From Candidatus Tectimicrobiota bacterium (GTDB taxonomy: Bacteria; JACPSX01): a DNA stretch of 22,529 bases. This document shows, in pieces, positions 1,801 through 20,426 of the stretch (its first letter is position 1; every line of letters begins with the position of its first letter). Both the position numbers and the translations under genes were made by a program. Where the stretch lies: the NCBI GenBank assembly GCA_016193065.1, contig JACPSX010000172.1:1-22529 (forward strand), in the 5' to 3' direction. Below the pieces are notes generated by a model. It worked only from the letters and a program-made list of their open reading frames with translations, did not search any database and had not been told where the DNA came from.

Positions 1801-1861
1801 CCTTTCGCGGCTTCGGACTATGAACTTTTCTGTGGGGTGCGGCGCAACCTGGCTGTGTTGC

Positions 1862-2386: not shown

Positions 2387-2523
2387 GTTTCTCCCTTCTG
2401 CGATTGTGCAAGGCTCTGCCGGAACTATCGCTGATGATCTTTGCCCGCCTCGAGCCTCGGCCGCCGCCGGCCTTTCTCTATAAAGATGGCTTCATCCTAA
2501 TTTCTCTACTATGTGCAAATACT

Positions 2524-3411: not shown

Positions 3412-3442
3412 TTTCATTCCTCCTGTTGGTAGAGGGCGCCGG

Positions 3443-4441: not shown

Positions 4442-4457
4442 TCGGATCCCTCCCCTT

Positions 4458-5717: not shown

Positions 5718-5758
5718 TTCATTCTTCCTTCATGTGGATCTCAGACCGCTTCATAATG

Positions 5759-5817
5759 CTGCTAGCCCGCTTACTGTCCCTTATGGTACTGGGAGAATTC
5801 CCCGTGGAGGCTAGCAG
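5759..5817 (-). promoter_or_regulatory. Inverted repeat in the leader of the LeuC-like operon
   Basis: CTGCTAGCC at 5759-5767 pairs perfectly with GGCTAGCAG at 5809-5817, a 9-bp inverted repeat around a 41-nt loop, 42 bases upstream of the LeuC-like start. It is too widely spaced for a plain terminator and has no T run. It could be a two-half-site operator or the closing stem of a structured leader RNA. Function is inferred only from position and symmetry. Confidence 0.35.
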
Positions 5818-5966
5818 TTGACTCTCCAAACCTCTCCGCTTTGGATGCCGCCGCCGGACTAAGAAATGCCAAATCCACTCTAGGAAGACCTCCGCAGAGT
5901 GTCTTTACTGGATCGGAATTTCTAGACCTGGATGTTCTGGGAAAATCGCCTTCAATTGTTGAGGTT

Positions 5967-5985
5967 TTTATAGGATTGTCACAAT
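5967..5985 (-). promoter_or_regulatory. Operator-like palindrome next to a TATAAA box, upstream of the LeuC-like operon
   Basis: On the minus strand the sequence reads ATTGTGACAAT (5985-5975), a palindrome of two 5-bp arms, followed three bases later by TATAAA (5972-5967). A short palindrome abutting a -10-like hexamer about 250 nt ahead of the first gene is consistent with a repressor site over a promoter. The TNGTNNNACNA shape is the kind bound by FadR/GntR-family regulators. No regulator gene is in the window, and no convincing -35 element is visible, so confidence is low. Confidence 0.3.
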
Positions 5986-6126
5986 AATTCGTTTGGGCCA
6001 TTTTACTGGTTAAATTGCACTACCGTTTTTCCTCTCATGCTTCTCTAATAGGGTGTTTTGCTTGCTGACGCGATAACCCTTTTCCGGCTATCTCCTCAGT
6101 ATCACGCACTGAACGCATATAGGCGC

Positions 6127-6156: not shown

Positions 6157-6521
6157 CTTCGCGCAGCGGCTTTTGGGAAGAATGACAACTCCAATGAGTG
6201 ACAAGACCCTGCAAGCGCACGGCCTAGAGCCGCGCCGGTCGCCAGAGCCGTCGCGAATCTTTGTGTGGAGCGTGCAGAGGGGATGCCAAGAGACAACAAA
6301 GCGAAACCTCGCCCGGAGGACCGCAGAAGCCATGGACCGAAAGGGCACTGCGACGGTATGGCATGGCCGGAGGACGACAACTGCGGTGTGAGGAGCAGTG
6401 ACGATGGGTGAAATTCCGGCTCATTCCCACTTCGAAGCAATCAGGGCAGTGCGTCCCGTTCGGGTGCTCCCCGACTTGTTCAGGAGCCTATCAGGAAACA
6501 GCGGTTGAGGGAGGAAACTCC

Positions 6522-7409
6522 ATGAGGAGGTTCTTGATTCTCTTTTGCTTGTTGAGCGCGCTGGCACTGACGGCCCCTCCGGTGGAAACGCAAATGCGCG
6601 GGGGGAAGGGGTTCAAGGGCGAGGGTATGGGTGGCGGAACGATGGGTGGTGGCCCGTCCGAGAGCACGGGATCGGGACTCCGCCTGCCGCCCGAGATCGT
6701 CGGCGCCTTCGCTCCGAGAGGGGCCACGATGGAGCACATGAAGGCAAAGGGGTTTTTTGCCACCGGGCTGGAACCCGTCTACCCCAAGGAGGCAAAGTGC
6801 CTCGAGGTTGAGTCAACCTTCGGATCCTGGACTCGGAGCGACGGCAGCTATCGCTCGCGCCAGTTCTATTTCGGTTATCACGGCGGCATGGACATTCCGG
6901 CCCCTGAAGGCACTCCGATCCTGGCCGTCGCCGCTGGCACGGTCGTCCACAAGTTCGTGGGTACAGGAATCGGAGGGATCGGAGTGGTCCTGCAGCATGC
7001 GCCCCAAGATACCGGCCTGCCGTCCTGGACCTATACGGAATACAAACATCTCCGCGAGATGGCGGACGTGAAAATCGGCCAGCGGGTGGAGATGGGCGAG
7101 GTCATCGCCCACGCCGGCGACACCGGTACTAGGGGAGGGCACTACGGCGAGGCGGGATTCTCGCATTTGCATCTGTCGGCGTACTTCAGCTTACAGAAAG
7201 ACTTCATAACCGCGCTGTTCTTCGCGCCCGTCGATGGCCAGTGGCTGGATCCCCTGGCCCTGTTCCGGGGACCGCCCTTGAGCTCCGCGGAGATCCACGA
7301 TCTCCCCGGTGACCGGAAGAGAGTCCGGTTCGCCTACAAGACCAGCGACGGAAAGGTGGTGCCGGAAGGAGCCAAGCTCATTTGGCCTTTTGCCTGCAAA
7401 CCCCGCTGA
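6522..7409 (+). CDS. Secreted M23-family (LytM-type) metallopeptidase domain protein
   Basis: The 295-residue protein starts with a signal peptide (MRRFLILFCLLSALALTAPP), then a short Gly/Met-rich linker with three GGG runs (residues 25-45), then a conserved leader region and a peptidase M23 domain. Zinc-ligand motifs are present: His120 and Asp124 in GYHGGMD, and HLH at 215-217 in FSHLHLS, with the typical GTPILAVAAGTVV strand (130-142) and GQRVEMGEVIAHAGDTG (186-202). All four canonical positions are kept, so it may be an active endopeptidase acting on peptidoglycan cross-links in the periplasm; some M23 relatives instead act as regulators. The frame is open upstream to 6408, but ATG 6522 has GGGAGGAAA seven bases ahead and begins the signal peptide, so it is preferred. 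It stands alone; the MFS gene follows after 117 nt. Confidence 0.82.
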   Translation: MRRFLILFCLLSALALTAPPVETQMRGGKGFKGEGMGGGTMGGGPSESTGSGLRLPPEIVGAFAPRGATMEHMKAKGFFATGLEPVYPKEAKCLEVESTFGSWTRSDGSYRSRQFYFGYHGGMDIPAPEGTPILAVAAGTVVHKFVGTGIGGIGVVLQHAPQDTGLPSWTYTEYKHLREMADVKIGQRVEMGEVIAHAGDTGTRGGHYGEAGFSHLHLSAYFSLQKDFITALFFAPVDGQWLDPLALFRGPPLSSAEIHDLPGDRKRVRFAYKTSDGKVVPEGAKLIWPFACKPR

Positions 7410-7439
7410 CCCCGACCGTCGAATGGCAAAGCGGGGGTT
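7399..7439 (+). terminator. Possible stem-loop at the end of the M23 gene
   Basis: AACCCCGCT (7399-7407) can pair with AGCGGGGGTT (7430-7439) with one bulged base around a 22-nt loop. The stem starts within the last codons of the peptidase gene and there is no following T run, so it would be at best a weak or Rho-assisted terminator. Confidence 0.22.
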
Positions 7440-7526
7440 CGGTTCCGAAATTTCCGGCGGGAGCTGCCCATCGACTGGTTTGTGGAATCCGTCAACCCCT
7501 GAGATTTTTTGCAGAGGTGAGCCCTG

Positions 7527-8723
7527 GTGAAATGGCGCGCCCTGGTCCTGTGCAGTCTCGCCTTTTCCGTCTGTCACGCCTACCGCGTGATCCTGTCCGT
7601 CCTCCTGCCTTCTCTCCAGGAGGAGTTCGGGATGAGCTACGCCTCTCTGTCGGTGTTGGCCTCCGCCTACGATTTCGGATTCTTTCTGACCCTCATCGCC
7701 GGAGGATATGCGGCGGGCCGCCTGGGCCGAAAGCGCGCCGTATGCAGCGGGCTTGCTTTGATCGGCCTGAGCAGTCTTGCTTCGGCGCTGGCGGCGCCCG
7801 GCCCTTTCTGGCTCATGGTTTATCGGGTGATCGGCGGCCTGGGGTTCAGTCTCTATTTCCCCGCGGGGTGGTCTCTTCTGGCGGGCGTCTTCCCTCAGCA
7901 GGAGCGGGGCAGAGCCTTCGGGATCCACACTTCCGGCTCGGCCGTCGGTCGGGTCTACGGCCCCCTGCTCGTGGGAGCCCTCATCGGCTGGGGGAGCTGG
8001 AGGCTACCCTTCGGGAGTTTCGGCTTTTTCAGCCTGGCGGCGGCCTTGCTGCTCCTCTGGGGACTGCGGGGATTCGAGGACTCCCGGGAGAGATCCGCTG
8101 TCCCATTCGGCAACGTGTTCAATTTGCTTTCCCGGAAGGCTTTCCTTGTGCCCTGTATTCTCAATGGCCTGGCGATGATCTACTTCATGGGCACGGTGAA
8201 TTTCTATCCTCTGTTTCTCTCCCGGCAAATGGCGTTGTCCGGATCAGCCGTTTCCTGGCTCGTCTCCCTCATCTCAGTGGTGAGCCTGTTCACCAACCCG
8301 CTGGTCGGGCACCTCTCCGACAAGGTGGGGCGCCGTCGTTTGATCCCGCCGGCTCTGTTCTTCGGCGGTCTCGTCGCCCTGTCCCTGCCATGGTACGGGA
8401 AGCAAGTTTCCCCGCTGGTTTATTCGGGTCTCATCGGGCTCTCGCTCTCCGCCAATTTTTCTCTGGTGATCACCTACTTGACCGAAGTGGACCCCCAATT
8501 TGGTCATCCGCTGGCCATCGGAGTGTATAACACGATTGCGATCGGCAGCGGGTTGATCATCAACGTGATCTTCGGGGTCGTGGCCGATTTCTTCGGTCTC
8601 AACGCCGTCTTCCTCGTGATGGCTCACCTGCTGCTGGCGGGAAGCGGGGCGGCCGCCCTTCTCTTGAAGGCCCCCGCGCTTCCTCAACCGGCGGCCGATT
8701 CTCTCGGAAACGCCGGAGGTTAA
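7527..8723 (+). CDS. Major facilitator superfamily (MFS) transporter
   Basis: The 398-residue protein is a hydrophobic 12-helix MFS carrier. The loop motif A between helices 2 and 3 is GGYAAGRLGRKRA (residues 59-71), and its repeat in the second half is GHLSDKVGRRRLI (about 260-272), the hallmark of the duplicated six-helix fold. It should move a small solute by proton symport or antiport across the inner membrane; the substrate is not readable. The start is GTG at 7527, supported by GAGGTG seven bases upstream; there is no ATG near the N-terminus in frame. The closest neighbours are an M23 peptidase upstream (117 nt) and non-coding repeat DNA downstream, so context gives no hint about the substrate. 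A second, only distantly similar MFS gene lies at 20890. Confidence 0.88.
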   Translation: MKWRALVLCSLAFSVCHAYRVILSVLLPSLQEEFGMSYASLSVLASAYDFGFFLTLIAGGYAAGRLGRKRAVCSGLALIGLSSLASALAAPGPFWLMVYRVIGGLGFSLYFPAGWSLLAGVFPQQERGRAFGIHTSGSAVGRVYGPLLVGALIGWGSWRLPFGSFGFFSLAAALLLLWGLRGFEDSRERSAVPFGNVFNLLSRKAFLVPCILNGLAMIYFMGTVNFYPLFLSRQMALSGSAVSWLVSLISVVSLFTNPLVGHLSDKVGRRRLIPPALFFGGLVALSLPWYGKQVSPLVYSGLIGLSLSANFSLVITYLTEVDPQFGHPLAIGVYNTIAIGSGLIINVIFGVVADFFGLNAVFLVMAHLLLAGSGAAALLLKAPALPQPAADSLGNAGG

Positions 8724-8768
8724 ATTCCCCCGGCGTCTTCTGCGGTTCCTTTCGTCGTAACGCAAGAG

Positions 8769-8774
8769 TATAAT
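8769..8774 (+). promoter_or_regulatory. Perfect TATAAT box
   Basis: TATAAT is present, but the bases 17 upstream (TTCCTT) are a poor -35 match. It would read into the repeat-bearing leader of the 9117-11228 unit about 340 nt downstream. Candidate only. Confidence 0.28.
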
Positions 8775-8879
8775 GGCGCCAAATCATCCTCAGATGAGAT
8801 GGTATGGGGACCTGTTAGTCTTTCTCCACCAGGAGAATTCCATTTCTCCCTCGCCCCTGGGAGACTGTGTCGCAATCCA

Positions 8880-8942
8880 CCGTTCGCCCTTCGACCGCGG
8901 GTACCCGCGAAGCGGGTACGGTTTCCAGGTGAGGACGAACGG
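8880..8942. repeat. REP-like element with nested perfect hairpin
   Basis: Outer arms CCGTTCGCC (8880-8888) and GGACGAACGG (8933-8942) are near-complementary. Inside is a perfect 8-bp hairpin, GTACCCGC / GCGGGTAC (8901-8908 and 8912-8919), with a GAA loop. The left half also forms an overlapping palindrome CGCGGGTACCCGCG (about 8896-8909), giving two alternative folds. Confidence 0.55.
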
Positions 8943-8972
8943 GTGAGTGGTTGGATTTCCGTGTGTCGTCGT

Positions 8973-9005
8973 CCGTTCGTGGTGAGCCTGTCGAACCATG
9001 AACGG
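8973..9005. repeat. REP-like palindrome, GTGAGCCTGTCGAACC core
   Basis: CCGTTCGTGGT (8973-8983) pairs with ACCATGAACGG (8995-9005) with one mismatch. Its central 27 bases (8976-9002) match the reverse complement of 13132-13158 at 25 of 27 positions, so the two are inverted copies of one element about 4.1 kb apart. Confidence 0.7.
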
Positions 9006-9116
9006 ACTTATGACACAGTCTCTGGGGGGAGAGGGCAAGGGTGAGAGGGGGGTCCTATGAGCCGCGGAAAGGGGCGCTAGGGACCGTGGCACTCCTCCGT
9101 GGTGGGAGAGGAATCG

Positions 9117-9278
9117 ATGCATGATTACGGTGAGTGCCACACCTGCGGTGAGTGGATGAAGGAGAGACGCATCAAGCAGGACTTCTGGATCAAAGGCAAA
9201 CTCATTGTCATTGAGGGCTCGAAATGCGGAGAAGAAAGCTGGTCACTCAGCGACCGATGGTTCAGCGGAACGATCTGA
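9117..9278 (+). CDS. Small zinc-finger-like protein (YgiT-type zinc ribbon candidate)
   Basis: A 53-codon frame starts at ATG 9117 with a strong GGGAGAGG ribosome site seven bases ahead and stops at TGA 9276-9278. The product has CHTCG (Cys7, Cys10), then DFWIKGKLIVIEG (22-34) and a KCGEE segment. The CxxC followed by an aromatic-KGK-hydrophobic strand-EG and a later Cys resembles YgiT-type zinc-finger domains, found in MqsA antitoxins and many small standalone proteins. Here only one cysteine of the second pair is present, so metal binding may be incomplete or the end may be altered. It overlaps the start of the next gene by 55 nt in another frame, implying translational coupling or a frameshift in an originally longer protein. 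It is too short to assign by eye with certainty. Confidence 0.5.
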   Translation: MHDYGECHTCGEWMKERRIKQDFWIKGKLIVIEGSKCGEESWSLSDRWFSGTI

Positions 9279-10822
9279 TCGGCCTCGGCAAGGAGAAGCT
9301 TGCCGAGCTTCTGGCCGAGCAGATATCGAGCCTGCCGTATCACCGGCAGAAGCAGTGGGTCCGGAGCCATCTGCCTGACAGGGCCAAAGACACGTCCGCT
9401 TCGGAGTCCCGGCGGGCCTCCCTGTTCGATGAAATCGAGGAGTTCTGCGCCCAATCCCGTTCCGGATCGTTCGTCTCCTGGGAGGACGATTATGGATGGG
9501 ACGACAGATATGGCGAGAGCGGCGATCATGAGAAATTCGAAGAGTGGATCGAGCTCTTTACCGATCTCATGAAAGGGGCGTTGGAACTCACCCGGTCGGG
9601 CCGGCACACGGAGGCGGCCGAAGCCTATCGGAAGCTCCTTGGGCTTCTCAAGGAGGCCGGGCAGACCACGGACATTCTTGGCAACCACGGCGCCCCCCAG
9701 GATTCGATCGATCTGGACTTCAGCAAGGTCATTGAAGCCTACGCCCGAAGCCTTCTGGCATCGCCCTCCGGCCAAAGCGTGGACGAGGTCATCACGGAGG
9801 TCCTCCCGGTGGCAAAGAAGTACCGGTACGTCGAGGGCTTCACGGGACTGGCCGGGGCGCTGGACGTGCAAGGAAGAGAGCGGCTCAAGGAGCGGTTGTC
9901 AAGGGCAGTGGAGGAGGGGCTGAAGGCAGACCGGCCGTACTGTCCCGATGAGGTGGAGGGCCTGATCGCTCTGGCCAGGGTCGGGAAGAATCAGACCGAG
10001 GTCCTCGCTCTCAAGGAACGGTTTGCATCCCGGAACGCCGTCTATCTGCGAGAGGTTCTCTCCCATTATGAACGAAAGAAGGACTGGAACGGCGTGGCCC
10101 GGCTGGCTCAGATGGGGGTCAAGCACTTCGGCCACCATGGGGAGTTTGCCAAGGCCCTCATCAAGGCCCGCGAGGCTCTCGGGGATCCGTCGGCCGCCCA
10201 GGAGGCCCAGATTGCGCACTTCCTGCAAGAACCCGGCGCCGCCGAGTTCGCGGCGCTGAGGCGGCGGTCGGAGGCTCTTTCCAACTGGGACGCGGTGTTC
10301 GAGAAACTCCTGCGGGCCTCAGCGTCGTGGCTGAAAACCCAACTCCTCCTGGCCGAGGGCAAAGAGCGTGAGGTTTTGGAAGGAGCCGTAGGACGGCAGA
10401 GTCGGATGGATCTTGACGGGATCAAACTTGTGGCTAAATATGCCGTCGCCAGACTGTCGGAGGGAGTGGACCTCGCCGGGTTCAAAAAGCTCGAGGAGCT
10501 TCAGAAGAGGCTCACGCGGGACAAAGATGAATCGTACGACTGGCTCCGTCTGATCTTCCAGAAACCCGGAACCTTGACTCGGGGCGAGTATGCGAGCTTG
10601 GCCGGTGGCATGTACCGCCGGCTCGTTGATGTCCACCTCAACTCCGGTAAGTCCTCACGGGCTGCACCGGCCGCTCATTACTGCGCCATTGTGGCCGAGC
10701 TCTCCCGGTTACTGGACGAGCCGGGATTGTGGGCGGATCTTCTGGGGCACCTCAAGCAACTCCACGGGAAGAAACGGCTCATCTGGGAAAAACTCAAGGC
10801 TGAGGGGTGTCCACTTGCGTGA
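9224..10822 (+). CDS. Large alpha-helical protein of unknown function (possible relative of the helical region of SWIM-associated proteins)
   Basis: The 532-residue product has no signal peptide or membrane segment. It is rich in Leu, Ala, Glu, Lys and Arg and looks all-helical with TPR-like repeats: HTEAAEAYRKLLGLLKEAG (about residues 127-145), KKDWNGVARLAQMGVKHFG (about 286-304), and VHLNSGKSSRAAPAAHYCAIV near the C-terminus. An acidic, Asp/Trp/Tyr-rich insert (SWEDDYGWDDRYGESGDHEK) lies near 86-105. The opening LGKEKLAELLAEQISSLPYHR recalls the region after SWIM zinc fingers in DUF6880-like proteins, but no SWIM motif is present. GAGGG six bases before ATG 9224 supports this start; an alternative is Met12 at 9257. 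It overlaps the zinc-finger-like gene and precedes the CcbP-like gene, suggesting one functional unit. A cytoplasmic protein-protein scaffold is a guess; function is unknown. Confidence 0.75.
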   Translation: MRRRKLVTQRPMVQRNDLIGLGKEKLAELLAEQISSLPYHRQKQWVRSHLPDRAKDTSASESRRASLFDEIEEFCAQSRSGSFVSWEDDYGWDDRYGESGDHEKFEEWIELFTDLMKGALELTRSGRHTEAAEAYRKLLGLLKEAGQTTDILGNHGAPQDSIDLDFSKVIEAYARSLLASPSGQSVDEVITEVLPVAKKYRYVEGFTGLAGALDVQGRERLKERLSRAVEEGLKADRPYCPDEVEGLIALARVGKNQTEVLALKERFASRNAVYLREVLSHYERKKDWNGVARLAQMGVKHFGHHGEFAKALIKAREALGDPSAAQEAQIAHFLQEPGAAEFAALRRRSEALSNWDAVFEKLLRASASWLKTQLLLAEGKEREVLEGAVGRQSRMDLDGIKLVAKYAVARLSEGVDLAGFKKLEELQKRLTRDKDESYDWLRLIFQKPGTLTRGEYASLAGGMYRRLVDVHLNSGKSSRAAPAAHYCAIVAELSRLLDEPGLWADLLGHLKQLHGKKRLIWEKLKAEGCPLA

Positions 10823-10889
10823 CCGGTTTCGGCGGTCATCATTCGCTGACGTTCCTGGTGACACCTACCGGCTCGGGCAGGAGTAAAAC

Positions 10890-11228
10890 ATGGCCAGACC
10901 CAGGAAAACCAAGAGGGCCAGTCGCCGCCTCCGGGAACTGATCGAAGAAGCCATTGTAGACTGCTATACGGAGGACGAGGAGCACGGGGGGTTTTTGGTG
11001 ATGTTTCAGGAGCACATTGCCTGCCCGTTCAAGGCGCTCGTGGTCGGGGAGGAAGTGGAGGTCCGGGACCTCGACTGGGATGGGTCCCCACAGGGGATCG
11101 TGGCCATCTGCCGGCGGAAGGGGCGTACCTACCGGGTCAACGCGACCGCCCTCGATTGGTCCGCCCGCCCACCGGTCGGCGCAGAATGGTTCGATGCCTA
11201 CCGGGCCTGGCTGAAGGGCAATTGGTAG
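10890..11228 (+). CDS. CcbP-like small acidic protein (putative calcium-binding family)
   Basis: The 112-residue protein contains RELIEEAIVDCYTEDEE (residues 15-31), GGFLVMFQEHIACPFKA (33-49), VGEEVEVRDLDW (52-63) and GRTYRVNATALDW (78-90). This order, an acidic helix, a FxxxxxHIxxPFxA core, a GxEVEV strand and a final LDW strand, is what I recall for the CcbP family, first described as a cyanobacterial calcium-binding protein. Assignment is by remembered pattern, not search. The start has CAGGAG about seven bases ahead. It follows the helical-protein gene after 67 nt on the same strand and probably belongs to the same transcript. If the family call is right it may sense or buffer a divalent metal for its larger partner; that link is inference. 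Confidence 0.6.
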   Translation: MARPRKTKRASRRLRELIEEAIVDCYTEDEEHGGFLVMFQEHIACPFKALVVGEEVEVRDLDWDGSPQGIVAICRRKGRTYRVNATALDWSARPPVGAEWFDAYRAWLKGNW

Positions 11229-11320
11229 TGGAGGCATTCGAGATGAGTCGGCTGCGTTCGAAACTCCAGCTTCGACCGGCTCTTGCTTCAGGCGCAGTTC
11301 TTTTCTGCTTTGCGGAACGG

Positions 11321-11326
11321 TATAAT
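11321..11326 (+). promoter_or_regulatory. TATAAT promoter candidate for the binding-protein/aldolase operon
   Basis: A perfect TATAAT lies about 77 bases before the SBP start; the -35 region 17 bases upstream (TTCTTT) is weak. A start site near 11333 would give a leader of about 70 nt with AAAGGAG nine bases before ATG 11403. Confidence 0.42.
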
Positions 11327-11402
11327 AGTTGGGAGTTCCGATTGCCCAGAGATAGCTTTCGCCTGCGAGTGTGATTGACCTCTGACCAAAGGAGTCTTCA
11401 CC

Positions 11403-12425
11403 ATGTTCACCTTTTGCCGAACTCTGTCCCACCGGGCGCTGCTGCAGCTTGCGGTGCTCGGTTTCTGCTCTCTGTCCCTTGTTTCCGGCGCTTCGGCGGC
11501 GGACAAGCTGACGGTGGCATGGACTGCCGTGGCCGGCTCCCAGGCCCCCCTGTGGGTTACGAAGGACGCCGGTCTTTTCGAGAAGAACGGGATCGACGCT
11601 TTCCTGATTTACATCGATGGGGGATCCAAGGCCGCCCAGGCCATGCTGGCCGGGGATGTTCCGTTAGCCGAAGTCGGCGGGAACGCTACCGTGGTTGCCC
11701 GTCTCAAGGGGGCTGACATCCTGTTGATCATGGGCCTCACGAACAAACTCGCTTACTCCCTGATCGTCAGCCCCCAGATTAAACGCCCGGAGGATCTGCG
11801 GGGGAAAAAGCTCACTGTGAGCCGCTTCGGCTCCAATTCGGATTACGCGACCAGGAAGATTCTTCTGAAGTGGGGGTTGCAGCCGGATAAGGACGTGGCC
11901 ATCATCCAGATCCCCGGCGGACAGCCGACCCGGCTGGGAGCACTTCAGGCAGGGCAGGTCGCGGGGCTTGTGGCCCAGCCTCCCGTTACGGCCATCGCCC
12001 GGAAAACGGGCTATCCGATTCTGGCGGGTCCGGAAGACTTCGGGACGGATTATCCCACCACCCCCGTGGCCGCCCTGGGTTCCTTCACGAAGGAGAAGCC
12101 CGACGTGGTCCGGCGCTTTGTGAAGGCCATGGTGGAAGGGATCCACACGTACAAGACGAAAAAGGAGTTCAGCATCCAGGTCATCAGCAAATACATGCGG
12201 GTCAAAGACCAGGAAGCCCTGGAGGACAGCTACGCGTTTTTCGCTCCTCTGGTTCCCGAGAAGCCTTACCCAACGGTGAAAGGCGTGGCGGAAGCTCTGG
12301 AGGAACTGGGTGCCAAGGACCCCAAGGCGCGCAGCGCCAGGCCCGAGGACTTCGTCGATATGCGTTTCGTCAAGGAGCTCGATGAAAGCGGCTTCGTTGA
12401 CCAGCTCTACCGAGGGAGGAGGTGA
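11403..12425 (+). CDS. ABC transporter periplasmic substrate-binding protein, NitT/TauT (NMT1/SsuA-like) family
   Basis: The 340-residue product has a signal peptide ending in GASAA (about residue 34). The mature protein starts DKLTVAWTAVAGSQAPLWVTK, then DAGLFEKNGIDAFLIYIDGG, the classic layout of NMT1/SsuA-like binding proteins. Other marks are the hinge KRPEDLRGKKLTVSRFGSNSD, the ligand-face QPPVTAIARKTGYPILAG, and the conserved late helix KEKPDVVRRFVKAMVEGIHTY. It should bind a small organic anion in the periplasm. AAAGGAG upstream of ATG 11403 supports the start. The class II aldolase gene begins one base after its stop, with its ribosome site inside the end of this gene, so the two are co-expressed. 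No permease or ATPase is nearby. It is clearly a relative of the 15429 protein (shared KGADI/QGADV, LRGKK/LKGKK and ATAKRF/DVVRRF positions) but not a recent copy. Confidence 0.88.
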   Translation: MFTFCRTLSHRALLQLAVLGFCSLSLVSGASAADKLTVAWTAVAGSQAPLWVTKDAGLFEKNGIDAFLIYIDGGSKAAQAMLAGDVPLAEVGGNATVVARLKGADILLIMGLTNKLAYSLIVSPQIKRPEDLRGKKLTVSRFGSNSDYATRKILLKWGLQPDKDVAIIQIPGGQPTRLGALQAGQVAGLVAQPPVTAIARKTGYPILAGPEDFGTDYPTTPVAALGSFTKEKPDVVRRFVKAMVEGIHTYKTKKEFSIQVISKYMRVKDQEALEDSYAFFAPLVPEKPYPTVKGVAEALEELGAKDPKARSARPEDFVDMRFVKELDESGFVDQLYRGRR

Positions 12426-12426
12426 G

Positions 12427-13110
12427 ATGACGACGAGCGACTGGAAAGAGCTGCGCGGCAAGCTTGCCTCCGCCTCCCGGATTCTGTACCGGGAGGGCGT
12501 GGTGGAGGGGTTCGGGCACATCAGCGCCCGCGTTCCCGGCACGGACACGTTTCTCATCCCCCGGCGGATGAGTCCCGCCCTGGTGACCGAGGCCGACCTG
12601 TTGCTGATGAACGTCCGGGGAGAAATTCTGGAAGGAGACGGTCTTCCCAATTCGGAGTCTCACATCCACTCCTCGGTGTACAAAAGGCGTCCCGACGTGG
12701 GGAGCGTGGCTCACACCCACGCTCCCATGGCGACGGTCCTGAGCAACTTCGGCAAGCCGCTGCGGTTTCTGAACAACCACGCCTGCGTTTTCGCCGAAGG
12801 GGTTCCCCTCTTCCACGGGGTCGGTCATATCGATACGGTGCAGATCGGAGACGAGATGGCCGCGGTCATGGGAAATTGCGGCGGCTTGTTTCTGAGGGCT
12901 CACGGCACCGTGACGGCGGGCAAAACCGTCGAGGAGGCGACGATTCTGGCCCTGTACCTGGAGGAAGCCAGCCGCCTGCAATACCAGTGCCTGCTGATCG
13001 GCGAGGATTTCACCTCCATCAGCCCCGAGGAGGCCAGAGCCATCAAGCCGAAGGTCCTGAACCCGACCACGATGGCCCGGGGGTGGGACTACTATCTGTC
13101 CAGGCTCTAG
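12427..13110 (+). CDS. Class II aldolase/adducin family protein (decarboxylase or aldolase)
   Basis: The 227-residue protein shows GHISARVP (30-37), PRRMSPALVTEADLL (45-59), a catalytic-acid segment NSESHIHSSVY with Glu77, the zinc-binding AHTHAP with His96 and His98, and a third ligand His159 in LRAHGTV. These are the metal site and active-site acid of class II aldolases such as fuculose-phosphate aldolase. The SPALVTEADL segment and the C-terminal MARGWDYYL ending resemble the subgroup annotated as HCOMODA/2-hydroxy-3-carboxymuconic semialdehyde decarboxylases used in aromatic acid breakdown, so decarboxylation may be likelier than sugar-phosphate cleavage. The frame is open upstream to 12310 inside the SBP gene, but ATG 12427 has GGGAGGAGG just ahead and matches the family start. 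Tight coupling to the binding-protein gene suggests it acts on the imported compound. Confidence 0.85.
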   Translation: MTTSDWKELRGKLASASRILYREGVVEGFGHISARVPGTDTFLIPRRMSPALVTEADLLLMNVRGEILEGDGLPNSESHIHSSVYKRRPDVGSVAHTHAPMATVLSNFGKPLRFLNNHACVFAEGVPLFHGVGHIDTVQIGDEMAAVMGNCGGLFLRAHGTVTAGKTVEEATILALYLEEASRLQYQCLLIGEDFTSISPEEARAIKPKVLNPTTMARGWDYYLSRL

Positions 13111-13131
13111 GAACATGCTGAAAGAGCCTTT

Positions 13132-13158
13132 TTCGTGGTTCGACAAGCTCACCACGAA
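13132..13158. repeat. REP-like palindrome (inverted copy of 8976-9002)
   Basis: TTCGTGGT (13132-13139) and ACCACGAA (13151-13158) form a perfect 8-bp stem with an 11-nt loop. Flanking CTTTTT and AAAAAG extend the symmetry with a small bulge. The element lies 21 bases past the aldolase stop and might also act as a terminator or mRNA stabiliser. Confidence 0.7.
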
Positions 13159-13189
13159 CGGAAAAAGATCAATAATTTCAAGCTCCTTT

Positions 13190-13223
13190 CCGTTCGCCCT
13201 GAGCATAGTCGAAGGGCGAACGG
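13190..13223. repeat. REP-like palindrome, second type
   Basis: CCGTTCGCCCT (13190-13200) and AGGGCGAACGG (13213-13223) are an exact 11-bp inverted repeat with the loop GAGCATAGTCGA. The arm CCGTTCGCCCT also occurs at 8880-8890. With the preceding palindrome 31 nt away this forms a paired REP arrangement, as in BIME-like elements. Confidence 0.7.
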
Positions 13224-13289
13224 AGGGTTTTTCAGTACCCTCCCCGGAAAAGAGATGAGCGATCAGCCTTCAGCCAGACCCCCGCCCAA

Positions 13290-13320
13290 CCCTCCCCGAG
13301 GGGGAGGGGGGGGGTGGGGG
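13290..13320 (+). repeat. C-run/G-run hairpin with G-rich tail upstream of ftsH
   Basis: CCCTCCCC (13290-13297) and GGGGAGGG (13301-13308) form a perfect 8-bp stem with a GAG loop, followed by further G runs to 13320. It may stop transcription weakly or form a G-quadruplex, and is also the type of low-complexity block often associated with dispersed repeats. The ftsH start is 66 bases further on. Confidence 0.4.
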
Positions 13321-13386
13321 TGACTTTCTGGTGAGTGCTGACGTAGGAAGGTTGCCGGTTATTCCGGGCATGGGAGTTTTAAGTTC

Positions 13387-15237
13387 ATGGAAAAGAAACA
13401 GCAGAGTTTTTCCCTCTGGTATTTTCTCATCGCCTTCTTTTTTGTCCTCTTGCTCCAGAACTATCTTTTTACCCCCCGCGTGGCCAATCTAACCTACAGC
13501 GAGTTTAAGGAATTGGTTCGCCGGGGCCTGGTGAAAGAGGTGGTCATCGAACAGGAGGTGATCCGGGGCGAGCTCAAGATGGAAAACCTGGAAGGAGTCC
13601 TCCCTCCGAAAAAGGTCGAGGAGTTCGGAAAGATGGGGGAAGGGGACCGGAGGTTCTTCTCAGTGCGGGTTGAGGACCCGGGCCTGATCGGCGACCTGGA
13701 GGAGGCGGAGGTAAAGTTTACGGGGGTCAGGATAAACACCTGGTTTCGCACGATCCTTTCCTGGGTGCTTCCGGCTCTTATCTTCGTGGGGATCTGGGTC
13801 CTGCTCATGCGCCGGTTCTCTGCCGGCAGCGGGCTGATGGCCATCGGCAAGAGCAAGGCCAAGGTCTATGTGGAGAAAGAAACCGGAGTCACCTTTGCGG
13901 ATGTGGCGGGGGTGGACGAGGCCAAGGAGGAGGTCCAGGAGATTGTCGAGTTATTGAAGAACCCGCAGCGCTACGGCCGGCTGGGGGGGAAAAATCCCAA
14001 AGGGGTTCTCCTGGTGGGGGTGCCGGGAACGGGAAAAACTCTGCTGGCCCGAGCCATCGCCGGAGAGGCCGGTGTCCCTTTCTTCAGCATGAGCGGATCG
14101 AGCTTCGTGGAGATGTTCGTGGGGGTGGGCGCGGCGCGGGTGCGGGATCTGTTTGCCCAGGCCCAGGCCTCGGCCCCCTGCATCATCTTCATTGACGAGC
14201 TGGACGCCCTCGGCAAGGCCCGCTCGGCGGGACCCACTCTCGGGGGACACGACGAAAGGGAACAGACCCTGAACCAGCTCCTGACCGAGATGGACGGCTT
14301 TGACCCCCGCAAAGGGGTCATTATCCTGGCGGCGACGAACCGCCCGGAAATCCTGGATCCGGCCCTGCTCCGGGCCGGCCGGTTTGATCGACACGTCCTG
14401 GTGGACCGCCCTGATATCAACGGCCGGGAGGCTATTTTAAAGGTGCATGCAAAAGGAGCGAAGCTGGCGTCGGAGGTCAACCTGCGCGAGATTGCCGCCA
14501 AGACCGTAGGGTTTGTGGGGGCCGACCTGGCCAACCTGGTGAACGAGGCGGCCCTGCTGGCGGCCCGCAGGGACAAGGAAGCCATCGACATGAAGGACTT
14601 CAGTGAGGCGATCGACCGGATCGTTGCCGGCCTGGAGAAGAAGAATCGCCTGCTGAACCCCCGCGAACGGGAGGTGGTGGCCTACCATGAAGCGGGCCAC
14701 GCCCTCATCGCGACCGCGCTGCCGGGGGCCGATCCGGTCAGCAAGATCTCGATCATCCCGCGGGGGATTGCGGCCCTGGGTTATACGCAGCAGCTCCCCA
14801 CGGAAGACCGCTACCTGATGCTGCAGTCCGAGCTGGAGACCCGGATCTCCGTTTTGCTCGGCGGGCGGGTGGCCGAGGAGATTATTTTCGAGGACGTCTC
14901 GACCGGTGCCCAGAACGATCTGCAGCGGGTCAGCGACATTGCCCGCCGGATGGTCACCGATTACGGCATGAGCAAGGAACTGGGGCTCATCTCGTATGAC
15001 AACCGGAGTCAGCACTCGTTCCTGCCCATGGTCTCTCCTGGGGTTCGGGAGTACAGCGAGGATACGGCCCAGCGGATCGATCAAGCCGTGGCGAGAATCG
15101 TCGCCGAAGCTCACGACCGGGTCAAACAACTCTTGCAGGAGCGTCGGGGCAAGCTGGAAACGCTGGCCAAGACTCTGCTGGACCGCGAAGTCCTGGAGGG
15201 CAAGGATCTGGAAGAGATCCTCCGTATGAGTGCTTAA
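13387..15237 (+). CDS. ftsH: ATP-dependent zinc metalloprotease FtsH
   Basis: The 616-residue protein has the full FtsH architecture: membrane segment 1 (about residues 10-28), a periplasmic domain (about 30-118), membrane segment 2 (about 120-141), and an AAA+ module with Walker A GVPGTGKT (211-218), pore loop FVEMFVGVG (240-248), Walker [11 protein letters not shown] (266-275) and second region of homology [20 protein letters not shown] (316-335). The protease domain has HEAGH (434-438) and the third zinc ligand Asp511 in [10 protein letters not shown]. It degrades misfolded membrane proteins and short-lived regulators at the inner membrane. ATG 13387 has GGGAG ten bases ahead and begins directly before the first membrane helix. 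Its [21 protein letters not shown] linker suggests it may be an extra paralogue rather than the housekeeping copy. Codons 519-534 (14941-14989) are duplicated exactly at 19586-19634. Confidence 0.97.
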
Positions 15238-15349
15238 AGAACTGGCTTGCTTTGGAGTTTCATGCTCCCCGCGCAGGTGTGTCTGGGAAAAAGAGGGTGA
15301 GGTGTGCGCGTCGCAAGGGTTCCGCCTGAAACAAGCCTAGAATACCCTC

Positions 15350-15383
15350 TTGACTTTCTCTGCCCCCAACTTTAATCTATAAT
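15350..15383 (+). promoter_or_regulatory. Promoter candidate for the third binding-protein operon
   Basis: TTGACT (15350-15355) is followed by an AT-rich tract with overlapping -10-like hexamers: TTTAAT (15371-15376, spacer 15) and TATAAT (15378-15383, spacer 22). No single pair has the ideal 17-base spacing. The position, 46-80 bases before a gene with a strong ribosome site and at the start of a lower-GC block, supports a promoter here. Confidence 0.42.
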
Positions 15384-15428
15384 CTATCCACAAGTAAATT
15401 CTTGTCACTCACTAGGGAGGGTTCTGAC

Positions 15429-16418
15429 ATGTTAAGGCGTATTCTAACTGCGCTTATAATTTCGGCTCTGATCATCGTCCCATTCTTCGGTCACGCACAG
15501 CCGATTCGAATTAGTTATGGCGGAACATCAGGATTTGGCACGCCCTTGCTGCTTACCCTTCAGATGGGCCTTTTTAAAAAGCACGGGATAGATTTAGAGC
15601 ATATACTCATGCCGGGAATGGGTGTACAAGCGCTATTAGCCCGTGAGGTTCAATTTGCTCACCCCGGAGCGGCCCCCGCAATCTATGCAGCGCTTCAAGG
15701 GGCTGACGTTGTCATGGTGGCCTCGTATTATAACGTCCTACCTTACAGCCTTGTAGTTCATGAGAATATTGTCAATCCCCTAGATCTGAAGGGAAAAAAG
15801 GTTGCGATTTCTCGTGTAGGAGGTATCGACGACTTCTCCGTTCAGCTTGCATTTAAGAAACTTGGCTTGGCTCCCAAGGATACCGCACTTATTCAAGTAG
15901 GCGCAGATGCGGAAAGAATTGCGGCAGTTCGGTCCGGCGCTGCGGCGGCCACGGTCAACGCTCCGCCAGCAGTTTTCACTGCTCAAAAGCTGGGCCTGAA
16001 GGTGCTGGTAGACCTTGGTGAACTGGACATTCCTTATCCTATAGGAGTGGTGGTCACGACGCGTTCCTATTTGTCCGAGAACCGCGCTACCGCCAAGCGT
16101 TTCCTCATGGCGCTTGTTGAAGGGCTAGATATCTACGTCTATGAGAAGGACGTTGCGCTGAGCGTTATGGCGAAGCTTACAAGAATGAGAGACCAAGACC
16201 TATTGTCTAAGTCCTATGACTATTTCGCCAAGGGTATGTCCCTAGTTCCTTTATTGAACCCCACTGCCGTGGAAAATGCCCTATTGGGCGCTGGTGCGAG
16301 CGGCCGTGATGTTGGGAAATTCTATGACAATTCGGTGCTGCAAGAGTTGGTGAAAGAGGGATTTATAGATCGGATTGCCAAAAATCGGATTGCCAAAAAA
16401 CGGAGCGGTGGGTCGTGA
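15429..16418 (+). CDS. ABC transporter periplasmic substrate-binding protein, NitT/TauT (NMT1/SsuA-like) family
   Basis: The 329-residue product opens with a signal peptide ending FFGHA (about residue 23). The mature protein runs RISYGGTSGFGTPLLLTLQM, GLFKKHGIDLEHILMPG, a QGADVVMVASYYN strand, the hinge NPLDLKGKKVAISRVGGIDD and the helix NRATAKRFLMALVEGLDIYV, matching NMT1/SsuA-like binding proteins. AGGGAGGG seven bases before ATG 15429 decides the start over a TTG at 15402. GC content is clearly lower than in ftsH upstream, suggesting separate acquisition. The C-terminus carries an imperfect duplicated RIAKN/RIAKK peptide from a 15-bp tandem repeat. The next small frame overlaps its stop, then a cupin gene follows. 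No permease or ATPase is present; the ligand is unknown. Confidence 0.87.
   Translation: MLRRILTALIISALIIVPFFGHAQPIRISYGGTSGFGTPLLLTLQMGLFKKHGIDLEHILMPGMGVQALLAREVQFAHPGAAPAIYAALQGADVVMVASYYNVLPYSLVVHENIVNPLDLKGKKVAISRVGGIDDFSVQLAFKKLGLAPKDTALIQVGADAERIAAVRSGAAAATVNAPPAVFTAQKLGLKVLVDLGELDIPYPIGVVVTTRSYLSENRATAKRFLMALVEGLDIYVYEKDVALSVMAKLTRMRDQDLLSKSYDYFAKGMSLVPLLNPTAVENALLGAGASGRDVGKFYDNSVLQELVKEGFIDRIAKNRIAKKRSGGS
16371..16400 (+). repeat. 15-bp tandem duplication inside the SBP C-terminus
   Basis: CGGATTGCCAAAAAT (16371-16385) is followed by CGGATTGCCAAAAAA (16386-16400), 14 of 15 identical and in frame. It adds one RIAKK-type pentapeptide to the tail of the binding protein and looks like replication slippage. 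Confidence 0.85.
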
Positions 16419-16675
16419 CAATGAATCTTGAGCCTGAAGTGACAAGTTTAGTAAAGAACACACAGATGTGCTCCACGATTTGGGGCGACTCCCACGATAT
16501 TATAAATCGTATGATGGTTTTGAGAAGGATTGAATTGGTCCTTTGCTTTCCAATCGAAGAGAACCTGCAGATTGCTAACCCTAAATCCGAGCAGCCCGCG
16601 GATATGAGGTTACCCTGCGGCAACGAGTTCTTAGAGTTTGTTAATAACCTGCACATTGTAAGAGATGAGCTTTGA
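16415..16675 (+). CDS. Small hypothetical protein (ORFan)
   Basis: The frame starts at GTG 16415, overlapping the TGA of the binding-protein gene (16416-16418), with an in-frame ATG two codons later at 16421; GGAGCGG lies 8-14 bases upstream. The 86-residue product has no signal peptide, no recognisable motif and three scattered cysteines. Its middle (MMVLRRIELVLCFPIEENLQ) could form a strand-helix unit. The overlap with the upstream stop and the 30-nt gap to the cupin gene fit an operon position, but its composition does not exclude a chance frame in AT-richer DNA or a decayed gene. No function is proposed. Confidence 0.4.
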   Translation: MTMNLEPEVTSLVKNTQMCSTIWGDSHDIINRMMVLRRIELVLCFPIEENLQIANPKSEQPADMRLPCGNEFLEFVNNLHIVRDEL

Positions 16676-16705
16676 CTTATAAATTTATGGAAGGGAGGAT
16701 GTTCC

Positions 16706-17143
16706 ATGCAGCAAGCTGGTAAGATGTTTGTTTCGAAGTTCAAGGAAATACGTCCGCATTGGTCACAGCCGGGTGGGCCGGGCACCCAGATGGCGACGAA
16801 CACACTCGTCGGTGGCCCTCCACCTTACCTTCACTGGGATCGTGATAGGGGGATCGTTTGTGATTCCTGCGCGGCTGGGACCTTTCTTCTTCCTCGTGAC
16901 TGCATTCAAGTCCTCCACCGCCATCCAGTCGATGAGGTGTATGTACTAGTCCGAGGAAGAGCTACATTCAGGAGCGATGAAGGACCGGAGATTGAGGCGG
17001 AGCCGTTTGACTGCATGTACGCACCAGCAGGGGTCTACCACGCAGCAAGGAACATAGGACTGGAAGATGCGTGGATCATTTGGTTCTGGGTAGGGTTGTG
17101 TAGACCCGAAGACTTTGAAATATACCCCGACGCGTCCAAGTAG
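16706..17143 (+). CDS. Cupin domain-containing protein
   Basis: The 145-residue protein carries a single cupin domain. Motif 1 is HRHPVDEVYVLVRG, giving metal ligands His71, His73 and Glu77. Motif 2 is APAGVYHAARN with His112. All four usual ligands are present, so it probably binds Fe, Mn or Zn. Single-domain cupins of this size act as small dioxygenases, decarboxylases, isomerases or sensors; the sequence does not discriminate. AAGGGAGG seven bases before ATG 16706 is a strong ribosome site. It lies on the same strand as the binding protein and ORFan and shares their lower GC, so these three may form one acquired unit; the very GC-rich E1 genes start 81 nt later and may not belong to it. 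Confidence 0.8.
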   Translation: MQQAGKMFVSKFKEIRPHWSQPGGPGTQMATNTLVGGPPPYLHWDRDRGIVCDSCAAGTFLLPRDCIQVLHRHPVDEVYVLVRGRATFRSDEGPEIEAEPFDCMYAPAGVYHAARNIGLEDAWIIWFWVGLCRPEDFEIYPDASK

Positions 17144-17224
17144 CGGTCATACATTTATAGCATCCTTTTGACAAGAGCCGCGGAGCGGGCGATGTTGAGG
17201 CCTGTCGCCAAAGGAGTCAAAGCC

Positions 17225-18220
17225 ATGGAGAAGGCCACCCTCCTCTCCCTCTATCGTACCATGCGGCTGATCCGCCGGTTCGAGGAGCGGATCGTCGAGC
17301 TGATCAACCGCAACGAGATCCCGGGCGTGACGCACGAGTATGTCGGGGAGGAAGCGGTCGCCACCGGCGTGTGCTCGGTGCTTCGGCCGGACGACGTGAT
17401 CACGTCGACCCACCGCGGGCACGGCCACATCCTGGCGAAGGGCGGCCAGCCGCGCCGGATGATTGCCGAGCTGATGGGGCGCGAGAGCGGCTACAACCGT
17501 GGCCGCGGCGGCTCGATGCACATCGCCGACCTCTCGCTCGGCATCTACGGCGCCAACGGCATCGTGGGCGCCGGCGCCCCGATCGCCTGCGGCGCGGCAT
17601 TCGCCGCGAAGCTGAACGGCAAGGATCGCGTGGCCGTGGCGTTCTTCGGTGATGGCGCCACGAACCAGGGCGTCGTCCACGAGGCCATGAACCTCGCCGC
17701 GATCTGGTCTCTGCCGGTGATCTTCGTCTGCGAGAACAACGGCTACGCCATCAGCGCGTCCATCAAGGAGATGGCGACCATCGAGCGGCTCTCGGATCGC
17801 GCGCGCGGCTACGGCATGCCGGGCGAGTGGGTGGACGGCATGGATGTGCTGGCCGTCCGCGGCGCGGCCGAGAAGGCGGTGGCGCACGCGCGACGCGGCG
17901 AGGGGCCGACGTTCCTCGAGTGCCGCACCTATCGCTTCGTCGGCCACTTCACCGCCGAGCGGGCGCTCAACATCCGCTACCGGGGCGACGAGGAGATCGC
18001 AGAGTGGCGCAAGCGCGACCCGGTCGAGACCTTCCCGGCCTGGCTCGAGCGCGAGGGCATCGCGACGGCGGCAGAGACCGAAGGGGTGCGTCGCGAGGTG
18101 GAGGGCGCGTTGGAAGATGCCATCGCCTTCGCGCGCGCGAGCCCGTTCCCCCAGGGCGAGGAAGCGCTCGACGGGATGTACGCGACGTCCTATCCCAACC
18201 TGCCGGCGAGAGGGGTCTAG
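17225..18220 (+). CDS. Thiamine-diphosphate-dependent 2-oxoacid dehydrogenase E1 component, alpha subunit (pyruvate/acetoin type)
   Basis: The 331-residue protein has the E1-alpha signatures: STHRGHGHILAKG (61-73), RGRGGSMHI (92-100), and the ThDP/Mg motif GDGATNQG...ENN (142-172, with Gly142-Asp143-Gly144 and Asn171-Asn172). With the beta subunit it decarboxylates a 2-oxoacid or cleaves acetoin, passing the acyl group to a lipoyl carrier. The frame is open to 17168, but ATG 17225 has AAAGGAG nine bases ahead and fits the family start. The beta-subunit gene follows after 2 nt. GC is about 70% in a sampled stretch, far above the cupin gene just upstream, so the compositional boundary falls near 17170-17220. 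Pyruvate, acetoin or a branched-chain 2-oxoacid are all possible; the short three-gene set is closer to acetoin-dehydrogenase-like clusters. Confidence 0.92.
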   Translation: MEKATLLSLYRTMRLIRRFEERIVELINRNEIPGVTHEYVGEEAVATGVCSVLRPDDVITSTHRGHGHILAKGGQPRRMIAELMGRESGYNRGRGGSMHIADLSLGIYGANGIVGAGAPIACGAAFAAKLNGKDRVAVAFFGDGATNQGVVHEAMNLAAIWSLPVIFVCENNGYAISASIKEMATIERLSDRARGYGMPGEWVDGMDVLAVRGAAEKAVAHARRGEGPTFLECRTYRFVGHFTAERALNIRYRGDEEIAEWRKRDPVETFPAWLEREGIATAAETEGVRREVEGALEDAIAFARASPFPQGEEALDGMYATSYPNLPARGV

Positions 18221-18222
18221 CC

Positions 18223-19194
18223 ATGCGAGAGATCCGTTACCTCGAGGCCCTGAGCGAGGCGCTGCGGGAGGAGATGCGGCGCGACCCGCGGGTCGTCGTG
18301 ATCGGCGAGGACATCCGCCACAGCCTGCGTGGGATGACGAAGGGCATCCTCCAGGAGTTCGGTCCAAATCGGATCTTCGACACGCCGATCTCGGAGGCCG
18401 GGTTCACCGGACTCGCCACCGGCGCCGCCATGGCCGGGATGCGGCCCGTCGTCGAGTTCCAGATCAACGCGTTGCTCTTCCTGGCGTTCGACCAGCTCGT
18501 CGACCAGGCGCTCAAGCTCCGCTACATGATGGGCGGACAGGGGAAGGTCCCGGTGACTTACATTCTTCCAGCATCCGGCGCGCGCCCCGGCCTGGCCGGA
18601 CAGCACGCGGATCATCCGTACCCGCTCCTGCTCCACATGGGGATGAAGGCTGCCATGCCCTCGACGCCGCGTGATGCGAAGGGCCTGTTCACGGCGGCCC
18701 TGCGCGACGACGATCCGGTGATGATATTCGCGCCAGCCGCGCTCGGCGGGACGCGGGGGCCGGTGCCGGAGGGCGACTTCGTGATTCAGCTCGGGCAGGC
18801 GGAGGTGAAGCGGAAGGGCAACGACATGACGATCGTCGCAGTCGGGCCGCTCGTCCCCGCCGCGCTCAAGGTCGCCGAGGAGCTGGCGGGCGACGGAATC
18901 TCGGCGGAGGTTGTCGATCCGCGGAGCCTGTTGCCGATCGACCACGAGACGATCGTCGGCTCCGTGAGGAAGACGGGCCGCGTGGTGATCTTCGACGACT
19001 CGAACCGCACGTGCGGCTTCGCCGCCGAGCTGGCGGCGATCATCGCCGACGAGGCCTTCGAGTCACTGCGCGCTCCGGTGAAGCGCGTCACTCGCGCCGA
19101 CGTGCCGGTGCCGTTCAGCCCGCCGCTCGAGAACTATGTGTTGCCGACGCGCGACAAGCTCCTCGCCAAGTGCCGCGCGCTCGCGAAAGCCTAG
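18223..19194 (+). CDS. 2-Oxoacid dehydrogenase E1 component, beta subunit (pyruvate/acetoin type)
   Basis: The 323-residue protein is the E1-beta partner. It shows VVVIGEDIR (24-32), the FDTPISEAGFTGLATGAAMAG segment with the ThDP-activating Glu58, an FDQLVDQALKLRYMMGGQ helix pair, and the C-terminal transketolase domain with DPRSLLPIDHETI and KTGRVVIFDDSNRTCGFAAELAA. The frame is open far upstream (to 17827) through the alpha gene, but ATG 18223 lies 2 nt after the alpha stop with GAGAGGGG ahead, and matches the family N-terminus. The alpha and beta subunits should form an alpha2beta2 heterotetramer. A free lipoyl-domain gene follows after 51 nt; no E2 catalytic domain or E3 dihydrolipoyl dehydrogenase is present. 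Confidence 0.93.
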   Translation: MREIRYLEALSEALREEMRRDPRVVVIGEDIRHSLRGMTKGILQEFGPNRIFDTPISEAGFTGLATGAAMAGMRPVVEFQINALLFLAFDQLVDQALKLRYMMGGQGKVPVTYILPASGARPGLAGQHADHPYPLLLHMGMKAAMPSTPRDAKGLFTAALRDDDPVMIFAPAALGGTRGPVPEGDFVIQLGQAEVKRKGNDMTIVAVGPLVPAALKVAEELAGDGISAEVVDPRSLLPIDHETIVGSVRKTGRVVIFDDSNRTCGFAAELAAIIADEAFESLRAPVKRVTRADVPVPFSPPLENYVLPTRDKLLAKCRALAKA

Positions 19195-19212
19195 GAGCCA
19201 GGAGCCAAATTG

Positions 19213-19242
19213 ATGAACACCGAGCCAACACTGGCGCTGTAG
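19213..19242 (+). promoter_or_regulatory. Leader mini-ORF ahead of the lipoyl-domain gene
   Basis: ATG 19213 to TAG 19240-19242 encodes 9 residues. The second copy of a GGAGCCA direct repeat supplies AGGAG (19200-19204) at the right 8-nt distance from this ATG, whereas the lipoyl-domain ATG at 19246 has no ribosome site of its own and lies 3 nt after the TAG. Translation of the carrier may depend on re-initiation from the mini-ORF. Inferred from spacing only. Confidence 0.3.
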
Positions 19243-19245
19243 AAC

Positions 19246-19485
19246 ATGCACGAGATCAGGATTCCGAAGCTGGGCATGGACACAACGGAGGCCGAGGTCA
19301 AGACCTGGCTGGTGAACGTCGGCGACCGGGTCGACGTGGGCGCGCCGCTGCTCGAGGTGGAGACAGAGAAGGCCGAGGTCGTCATCGAGGCCGAGGTGGC
19401 CGGGATGGTCCGCGAGATCCGCGCGCCGGCCGGCCAGGTCGTTCCCATCGGCGACATCGTCGGTCTCATCGACGACCAGGCCTGA
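19246..19485 (+). CDS. Standalone lipoyl (biotinyl/lipoyl) carrier domain protein
   Basis: The 79-residue product is one complete lipoyl domain: HEIRIPKLGMDTTEAEVKTWLVNVGD (2-27), the modification hairpin EVETEKAEVVIEAE with Lys42 as the lipoylation site, and IRAPAGQVVPIGDIVGLI (58-75). It should carry the acyl group formed by the adjacent E1. In classical complexes this domain is fused to an E2 acyltransferase; here the gene stops directly after the domain, so the transferase and E3 must come from elsewhere, or the original E2 was lost. Small free lipoyl-domain proteins next to E1-alpha/beta genes do occur, so this may be the natural form. A chimeric scrap of SDR and ftsH begins 8 nt downstream, showing that DNA beyond this gene was rearranged. 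Confidence 0.85.
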   Translation: MHEIRIPKLGMDTTEAEVKTWLVNVGDRVDVGAPLLEVETEKAEVVIEAEVAGMVREIRAPAGQVVPIGDIVGLIDDQA

Positions 19486-19492
19486 GGTCTCC

Positions 19493-19654
19493 GTGAAGCT
19501 CGCCGAGGGCGACTGGTACCGCGTGCTCGCCATCAACCTCACCGGCGTCTTTCTGGCGTGCCGAGTCGCGGGACGGCGAAAGGTGGCCCGCCGGATGGTC
19601 ACCGATTACGGCATGAGCAAGGAACTGGGGCTCAGTGTGCCCGGGAACGAATAA
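19493..19654 (+). pseudogene. Chimeric gene scrap: SDR middle fragment fused in frame to an FtsH fragment
   Basis: From GTG 19493 a 53-codon frame runs to TAA 19652-19654. Its first half reads EGDWYRVLAINLTGVFLACR, the helix-strand centre of a short-chain dehydrogenase (around position 100-130 of a normal 250-residue SDR). After a short RVAGRRKV junction it reads [16 protein letters not shown], identical to FtsH residues 519-534, encoded by an exact 49-bp copy, and then ends SVPGNE. Neither the SDR nucleotide-binding start nor its catalytic YxxxK end is present. It looks like the scar of a deletion/recombination that removed most of an SDR gene once following the lipoyl-domain gene and left an ftsH-derived piece. 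It is unlikely to encode a working enzyme. Confidence 0.8.
19586..19634 (+). repeat. Exact 49-bp copy of ftsH 14941-14989
   Basis: Bases 19586-19634 equal 14941-14989 at every position, while the next base on each side differs (T/G before, T/G after). Same orientation, 4645 bp apart. It marks a recombination or duplication endpoint inside the chimeric frame. Confidence 0.95.
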
Positions 19655-19679
19655 AACCGTGCTTGCAAGGGGGTAGCTC

Positions 19680-20426
19680 ATGAGGCTGAAAGATCAGGTG
19701 GCCATCATTACCGGGGCCGCCCAGGGGATTGGAGCGGCCTACGCCCGGGGATTGGCCAAGGAAGGGGCCGAGGTCGTGGTAGTCGATATTCTGGATCCGA
19801 AGCCGGTGGTGCGGGAAATCAACGCAGCCGGTGGAAACGCCCACGGTCTGGTGGTCGATGTCTCCTCGGAAAGCCGGGCCCGGGAAATGGCCAAGCAGGT
19901 GGCCGAAACCTGCGGCCGCATCGACATTCTCATCAACAACGCCGCCGTGTACGCGGCCATCGCCCGCAAGGGGTTTGAAGAAATCACCGAGGAAGAGTGG
20001 GACAAGGTCATGGCCGTCAACGTGAAAGGGGTCTTCTTCTGCGTGAAGGCGGTCGCTCCGTACATGAAGGCCCACAAAAAGGGGAAGATCATCAACGTGG
20101 CCTCCAGCACGTTCTTCAAGGGGACCGATCATTTCTTGCACTACGTGAGCTCCAAAGGGGCCGTGGTGGCCATGACCCGGGCTCTGGCCCGTGAGCTCGG
20201 GGATTACAACATCAACGTGAATACCCTGGCCCCCGGCCAGACCATGAGCGAGGCGAACCTGAAGCGGGGGGAGGAGACGGATAAAGGCCAGATGGCCAGG
20301 CGGGTTCTCAAGCGCCGCCTGTATCCGGAAGACATGGTGGGAACGGCGATCTATCTGAGTTCCTCGGACAGCGACATGGTCACCGGGGGAATCTTCCTGG
20401 TGGACGGCGGCACCGTGTTCTACTAA
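19680..20426 (+). CDS. Short-chain dehydrogenase/reductase (SDR), classical type
   Basis: The 248-residue protein has the classical SDR layout: cofactor motif TGAAQGIG (11-18), Asp36 at the end of the second strand suggesting NAD(H) over NADP(H), INNAA (85-89), catalytic Ser142 or Ser143, and YVSSK (Tyr155, Lys159), ending with VTGGIFLVDGGTVF, the conserved C-terminal strand. It oxidises or reduces an alcohol/carbonyl in the cytoplasm; 3-oxoacyl-ACP reductase or sugar-alcohol and hydroxyacid dehydrogenases are the usual relatives. CAAGGGGG seven bases before ATG 19680 supports the start. It is intact and unrelated to the SDR scrap upstream. The next gene, an MFS transporter, begins about 460 nt later, so joint transcription is uncertain. 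Confidence 0.92.
   Translation: MRLKDQVAIITGAAQGIGAAYARGLAKEGAEVVVVDILDPKPVVREINAAGGNAHGLVVDVSSESRAREMAKQVAETCGRIDILINNAAVYAAIARKGFEEITEEEWDKVMAVNVKGVFFCVKAVAPYMKAHKKGKIINVASSTFFKGTDHFLHYVSSKGAVVAMTRALARELGDYNINVNTLAPGQTMSEANLKRGEETDKGQMARRVLKRRLYPEDMVGTAIYLSSSDSDMVTGGIFLVDGGTVFY

Follow-up and report, generated by a model that had tools for sequence, protein, structure and literature searches.

How did a piece of an SDR and a piece of FtsH come to share one reading frame of 53 codons, at the edge of a block of metabolic genes? The window analyzed here is an entire contig of 22,529 bp. It belongs to a metagenome-assembled genome (MAG) of 2.90 Mb in 294 contigs, 86% complete, which is the sole representative of its phylum in the genome set compared. 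We favor, with moderate confidence, the view that the fusion has no function and is a scar left by illegitimate recombination where a horizontally acquired metabolic block ends on its right side. The locus is not a new gene or system; the observation is real and its cause is ordinary. The features are listed in Table 1.

Table 1. Features of the fusion locus and its surroundings (positions in the window)
Feature	Positions	Strand	Basis or content
Donor copy of the 49-bp repeat, inside intact ftsH (13387-15237)	14941-14989	+	ORF list, repeat search, codon choice
Block of foreign composition	15238-19585	+	NMT1-like binding protein, cupin (~50% GC), then E1 alpha, E1 beta, lipoyl (~69% GC)
Gap between intact lipoyl-domain ORF and intact SDR gene (whole candidate scar)	19486-19679	+	ORF list; RNA searches
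Fusion frame (SDR piece and FtsH piece)	19493-19654	+	ORF list, domain search
SDR core fragment (VKLAEGDWYRVLAINLTGVFLACRVAGRRKV), both enzyme ends missing	19493-19585	+	Pfam/PDB matches
Second, displaced copy of the 49-bp ftsH segment	19586-19634	+	Repeat search, genome search, flank identity
Intact SDR gene, native side of the scar	19680-20426	+	ORF list, annotation, composition

The first-pass annotation had described an in-frame chimera of an SDR core and an FtsH segment, and its description of the frame holds. The ORF is present in the window with a GTG start. Its first part, a coding piece of about 93 bp in frame with the ftsH piece that follows, matched Pfam adh_short over 25 aa (E = 0.014), which is short and weak on its own. 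A phmmer search of the PDB gave a best E-value of 2.9e-4, and nearly all of the matches were SDRs, aligned at enzyme residues ~100-140. Individually weak, these matches are nonetheless consistent with an SDR origin. They cover ~25-33 central residues, and neither the cofactor motif nor the catalytic residues of the enzyme were found in the fragment. The second part matched positions 96-113 of Peptidase_M41 (Pfam), that is, 17-18 residues of an incomplete domain.

Since the ORF is in frame and a GAGG-like ribosome site precedes its GTG, it could be read as a functional small gene, for example one for a regulator or decoy peptide built from SDR and FtsH segments. We regard this as extremely improbable: its 53 codons consist of fragments with no complete domain, they show no RNA structure, and the full unit had no match in 58 other genomes, all of them distant. 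Searches of the gap that holds the frame found no RNA family, and its RNA structure was not unusual; an RNA element was rejected on these grounds. We judge that the frame is not a gene and should not be annotated as one.

The repeat itself is exact. All 49 nucleotides of the two copies are identical and in direct orientation, and this pair is the sole direct repeat of at least 22 nt within the window. Identity ends abruptly, as had been noted from the letters alone; ungapped identity over 60 nt on each side is 27-28%, which is chance level. By chance, the whole genome should contain ~2e-16 exact 49-bp pairs, and a chance origin of the copy is excluded. An exact copy from a non-homologous locus, with abrupt edges on both sides, is what a recombination scar should contain, and it is present here. 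The 49-mer has just two copies genome-wide (genome 86% complete), one in ftsH and one in the fusion. A viral origin was rejected, since IMG/VR contained no exact match to the first 36 bases of the repeat.

The first-pass annotation attributed the chimera to recombination, possibly with a second ftsH paralogue, or to an assembly join. This was the right class of explanation, and the paralogue is the part that lost support. Apart from the fusion, the 49-mer occurs in the intact ftsH alone, and the next AAA matches in the genome (86% complete) are ~40% identical or less; a second ftsH as source was rejected. The same genome was searched for the rest of the truncated SDR, the source of the fragment, and it was not found. 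A conserved E1-lipoyl-SDR operon was also considered as a source and rejected: a related E1 beta was present at 49 loci, and the SDRs found there are distant and do not directly follow the lipoyl gene.

The resident ftsH is complete, and the codon choice is native to its 3′ end. The donor segment lies 248 bp before the ftsH stop, and so adjoins the left edge of the same foreign block; from the donor segment to the first gene of that block the distance is 413 bp. Donor and copy have the same orientation and are less than 5 kb apart, an arrangement with a probability of ~0.0017 (about 0.2%) for a random donor. The template indicated by this nearness and shared orientation is the resident ftsH itself. 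This locality bears on a related mechanism, short-patch illegitimate substitution, in which a single-stranded piece of ftsH would have annealed at microhomologies and replaced part of an existing intergenic stretch. Such substitution has reportedly been seen in Acinetobacter baylyi. The size of the patch, its abrupt edges and its intragenomic origin would fit, and a ComEC homologue was found in the genome, but the mechanism does not predict a same-orientation donor 4.6 kb away, nor a patch placed exactly at the border between foreign and native DNA. We hold it to be quite improbable.

Because the two copies bracket the foreign block, they could also be attachment-site repeats left by site-specific integration into ftsH, around an element at 14990-19585. 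This is hardly credible. No integrase, recombinase or other mobility gene was found within the bracketed DNA, and no remnant of the ftsH 3′ end follows the right copy. The ftsH 3′ end past the left copy has native codon choice; a foreign 3′ end was rejected from the in-frame codons of 14990-15234.

The block is foreign by composition. We compared the window with 120 of the 294 contigs (1.17 Mb). The genome has ~60% GC, with 54-64% in 90% of the 1-kb bins. This contig was the most mixed in composition of the 120 sampled, and its GC range of 21 points was the widest. Positions 1-6,000 and 15,250-19,585 of the window are off-composition, whereas 6,250-15,250 and 19,600 onward are typical of the genome. 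The GC transition reported earlier at the frame is real: the E1/lipoyl part has ~69% GC against ~61% downstream, and GC3 falls from 0.90-0.93 to 0.82. In tetranucleotide distance, the E1/lipoyl part lies beyond every other segment tested in the 1.17-Mb sample. The native parts carry repeat families common to other contigs of the genome (8,854-9,025; 13,130-13,235; 20,539-20,684). The fusion stands where the foreign block (15.25-19.58 kb) meets native DNA.

Several other features of the genome and of these blocks were recorded. The dispersed repeats at the three positions just given include TTCGTGGTTCGACAAGCTCACCACGAACGG-type units and are found on many other contigs. The two off-composition blocks, at 48-50% and 67-69% GC, carry catabolic genes with intact ends: an Fe-alcohol dehydrogenase, an aconitase-like pair, a PEP mutase-like protein, NMT1-like binding proteins, a cupin, and E1 alpha and beta. 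A CRISPR-like array with 37-bp repeats at ~75-bp spacing occupies positions 1-323, at the contig start, in L071 (G000:C1).

The boundaries of the blocks, at 1.8, 6.2, 15.25, 17.15 and 19.5-19.65 kb, fall between intact genes. Acquired gene blocks account for this pattern better than random misjoins, most of which would cut genes. Gene scraps were seen nowhere but in the 194-bp gap of Table 1.

Composition of this kind also raises the question of an artefact: the assembler, gap filling or chimeric molecules could have linked the 49-bp piece to the foreign block on one side and to the downstream genes on the other, and no cell would then carry the junction. The contig comes from a metagenome, and both its GC range and the outlying tetranucleotide distance of the E1/lipoyl block agree with such a join. 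Runs of N in other contigs indicate that scaffolding or masking took place, and the join is carried by no independent genome among the 58 others, all distant. The contig ends speak on the other side. Exact 141-bp overlaps of contig ends were found twice (between L138 and L155, and within L169), which indicates a MEGAHIT-like de Bruijn assembly with a final k of 141; this is the final k of MEGAHIT by default. At that k, a 49-bp repeat by itself creates no branching in the final round of assembly, and reads of ~150 bases would have to span it, so the copy is probably covered from end to end by reads. With contig ends that overlap by 141, a de Bruijn node of length 49 was rejected as a cause. A false join would also require one ftsH segment to have been misjoined separately at each of its ends, and the other composition boundaries lie neatly between intact genes. 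Chimeras from whole-genome amplification are mostly inverted, whereas this copy is direct. Chimeric molecules, low-k joins and gap filling are possible routes to an artefact. Overall we judge an artefact unlikely, though it is the main rival reading and deserves serious weight.

The layout of the gap suggests how a recombination scar could have formed. From left to right it contains ~93 bp of SDR, 49 bp of ftsH and a 45-bp leader, followed by the intact SDR gene. DNA synthesis or recombination would have connected the truncated SDR, at position 19585, backward with position 14941 in ftsH. By one route, this connection would have created a tandem duplication of 4,645 bp, and in a later step the second copy would have been deleted from its base 50 onward, up to 19635 in the leader of the SDR gene. 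By the other, a single template-switch excursion would have copied 49 bp and then jumped forward, with the same product. We infer the joining and the duplication with deletion, or the template switch, from this layout. Non-homologous end joining with filler was not favored, as the search for Ku in the genome (86% complete) was negative.

Microhomology at the Ala-Arg codons GCC CGC would have aided the left join; these codons are expected in the lost continuation of the SDR. At the fusion point, SDR relatives have VAxG (2wdz GRAMVARG, 4cr6 ARAMVAAG) and the frame has KVAR-R. Judging from the SDR consensus, which stands in for the parental gene, GCC CGC was probably common to SDR and ftsH and would have served as the microhomology of the left join. 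On this reading, the parental SDR is predicted to carry GTGGCCCGC where the fusion lies. With the two reading frames meeting at these codons, the fusion would be in frame without selection.

The neighboring lipoyl ORF (19246-19485) encodes 79 aa. In three of the related loci (L036, L056 and L024), the lipoyl domain after E1 beta belongs to a full-length E2-like protein. From this comparison, the ORF may be what remains of an E2 that the scar-forming rearrangement truncated.

Elsewhere in the genome, L131 (G000:C27) has an exact 54-bp direct repeat at 14606-14659 and 15466-15519, also an abrupt local copy. There, a PF09720/ParE toxin-antitoxin pair is directly followed by a second copy of the end of a methyltransferase gene. 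That this lineage habitually leaves short exact copies of host genes at the edge of acquired DNA seems very improbable to us; if true, such recurrence would suggest that DNA is acquired by a process that copies local templates. The scar, if real, is a small fossil of how an acquired metabolic block was fitted beside ftsH. It shows that local copying can yield in-frame gene fusions without selection, and it warns against annotating a fusion ORF as a gene.

Three known kinds of locus can be compared with this one. Chimeric contigs of metagenomes likewise have mixed composition within a contig and gene fragments at the join; here, the repeat is much shorter than the apparent final k of 141, and the remaining boundaries leave the genes beside them intact. 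Short-patch double illegitimate recombination (Harms et al., 2016) likewise places dozens of intragenomic bases at a non-homologous site, but here the donor is local and the patch is at the border of an acquired block. The footprints of illegitimate recombination include collapsed tandem duplications, templated insertions and template switching. Our case differs from them in being read from one assembly, and it shares with them a short exact direct copy of nearby DNA, abrupt edges and a truncated gene at the join; microhomology would be a further, likely point in common.
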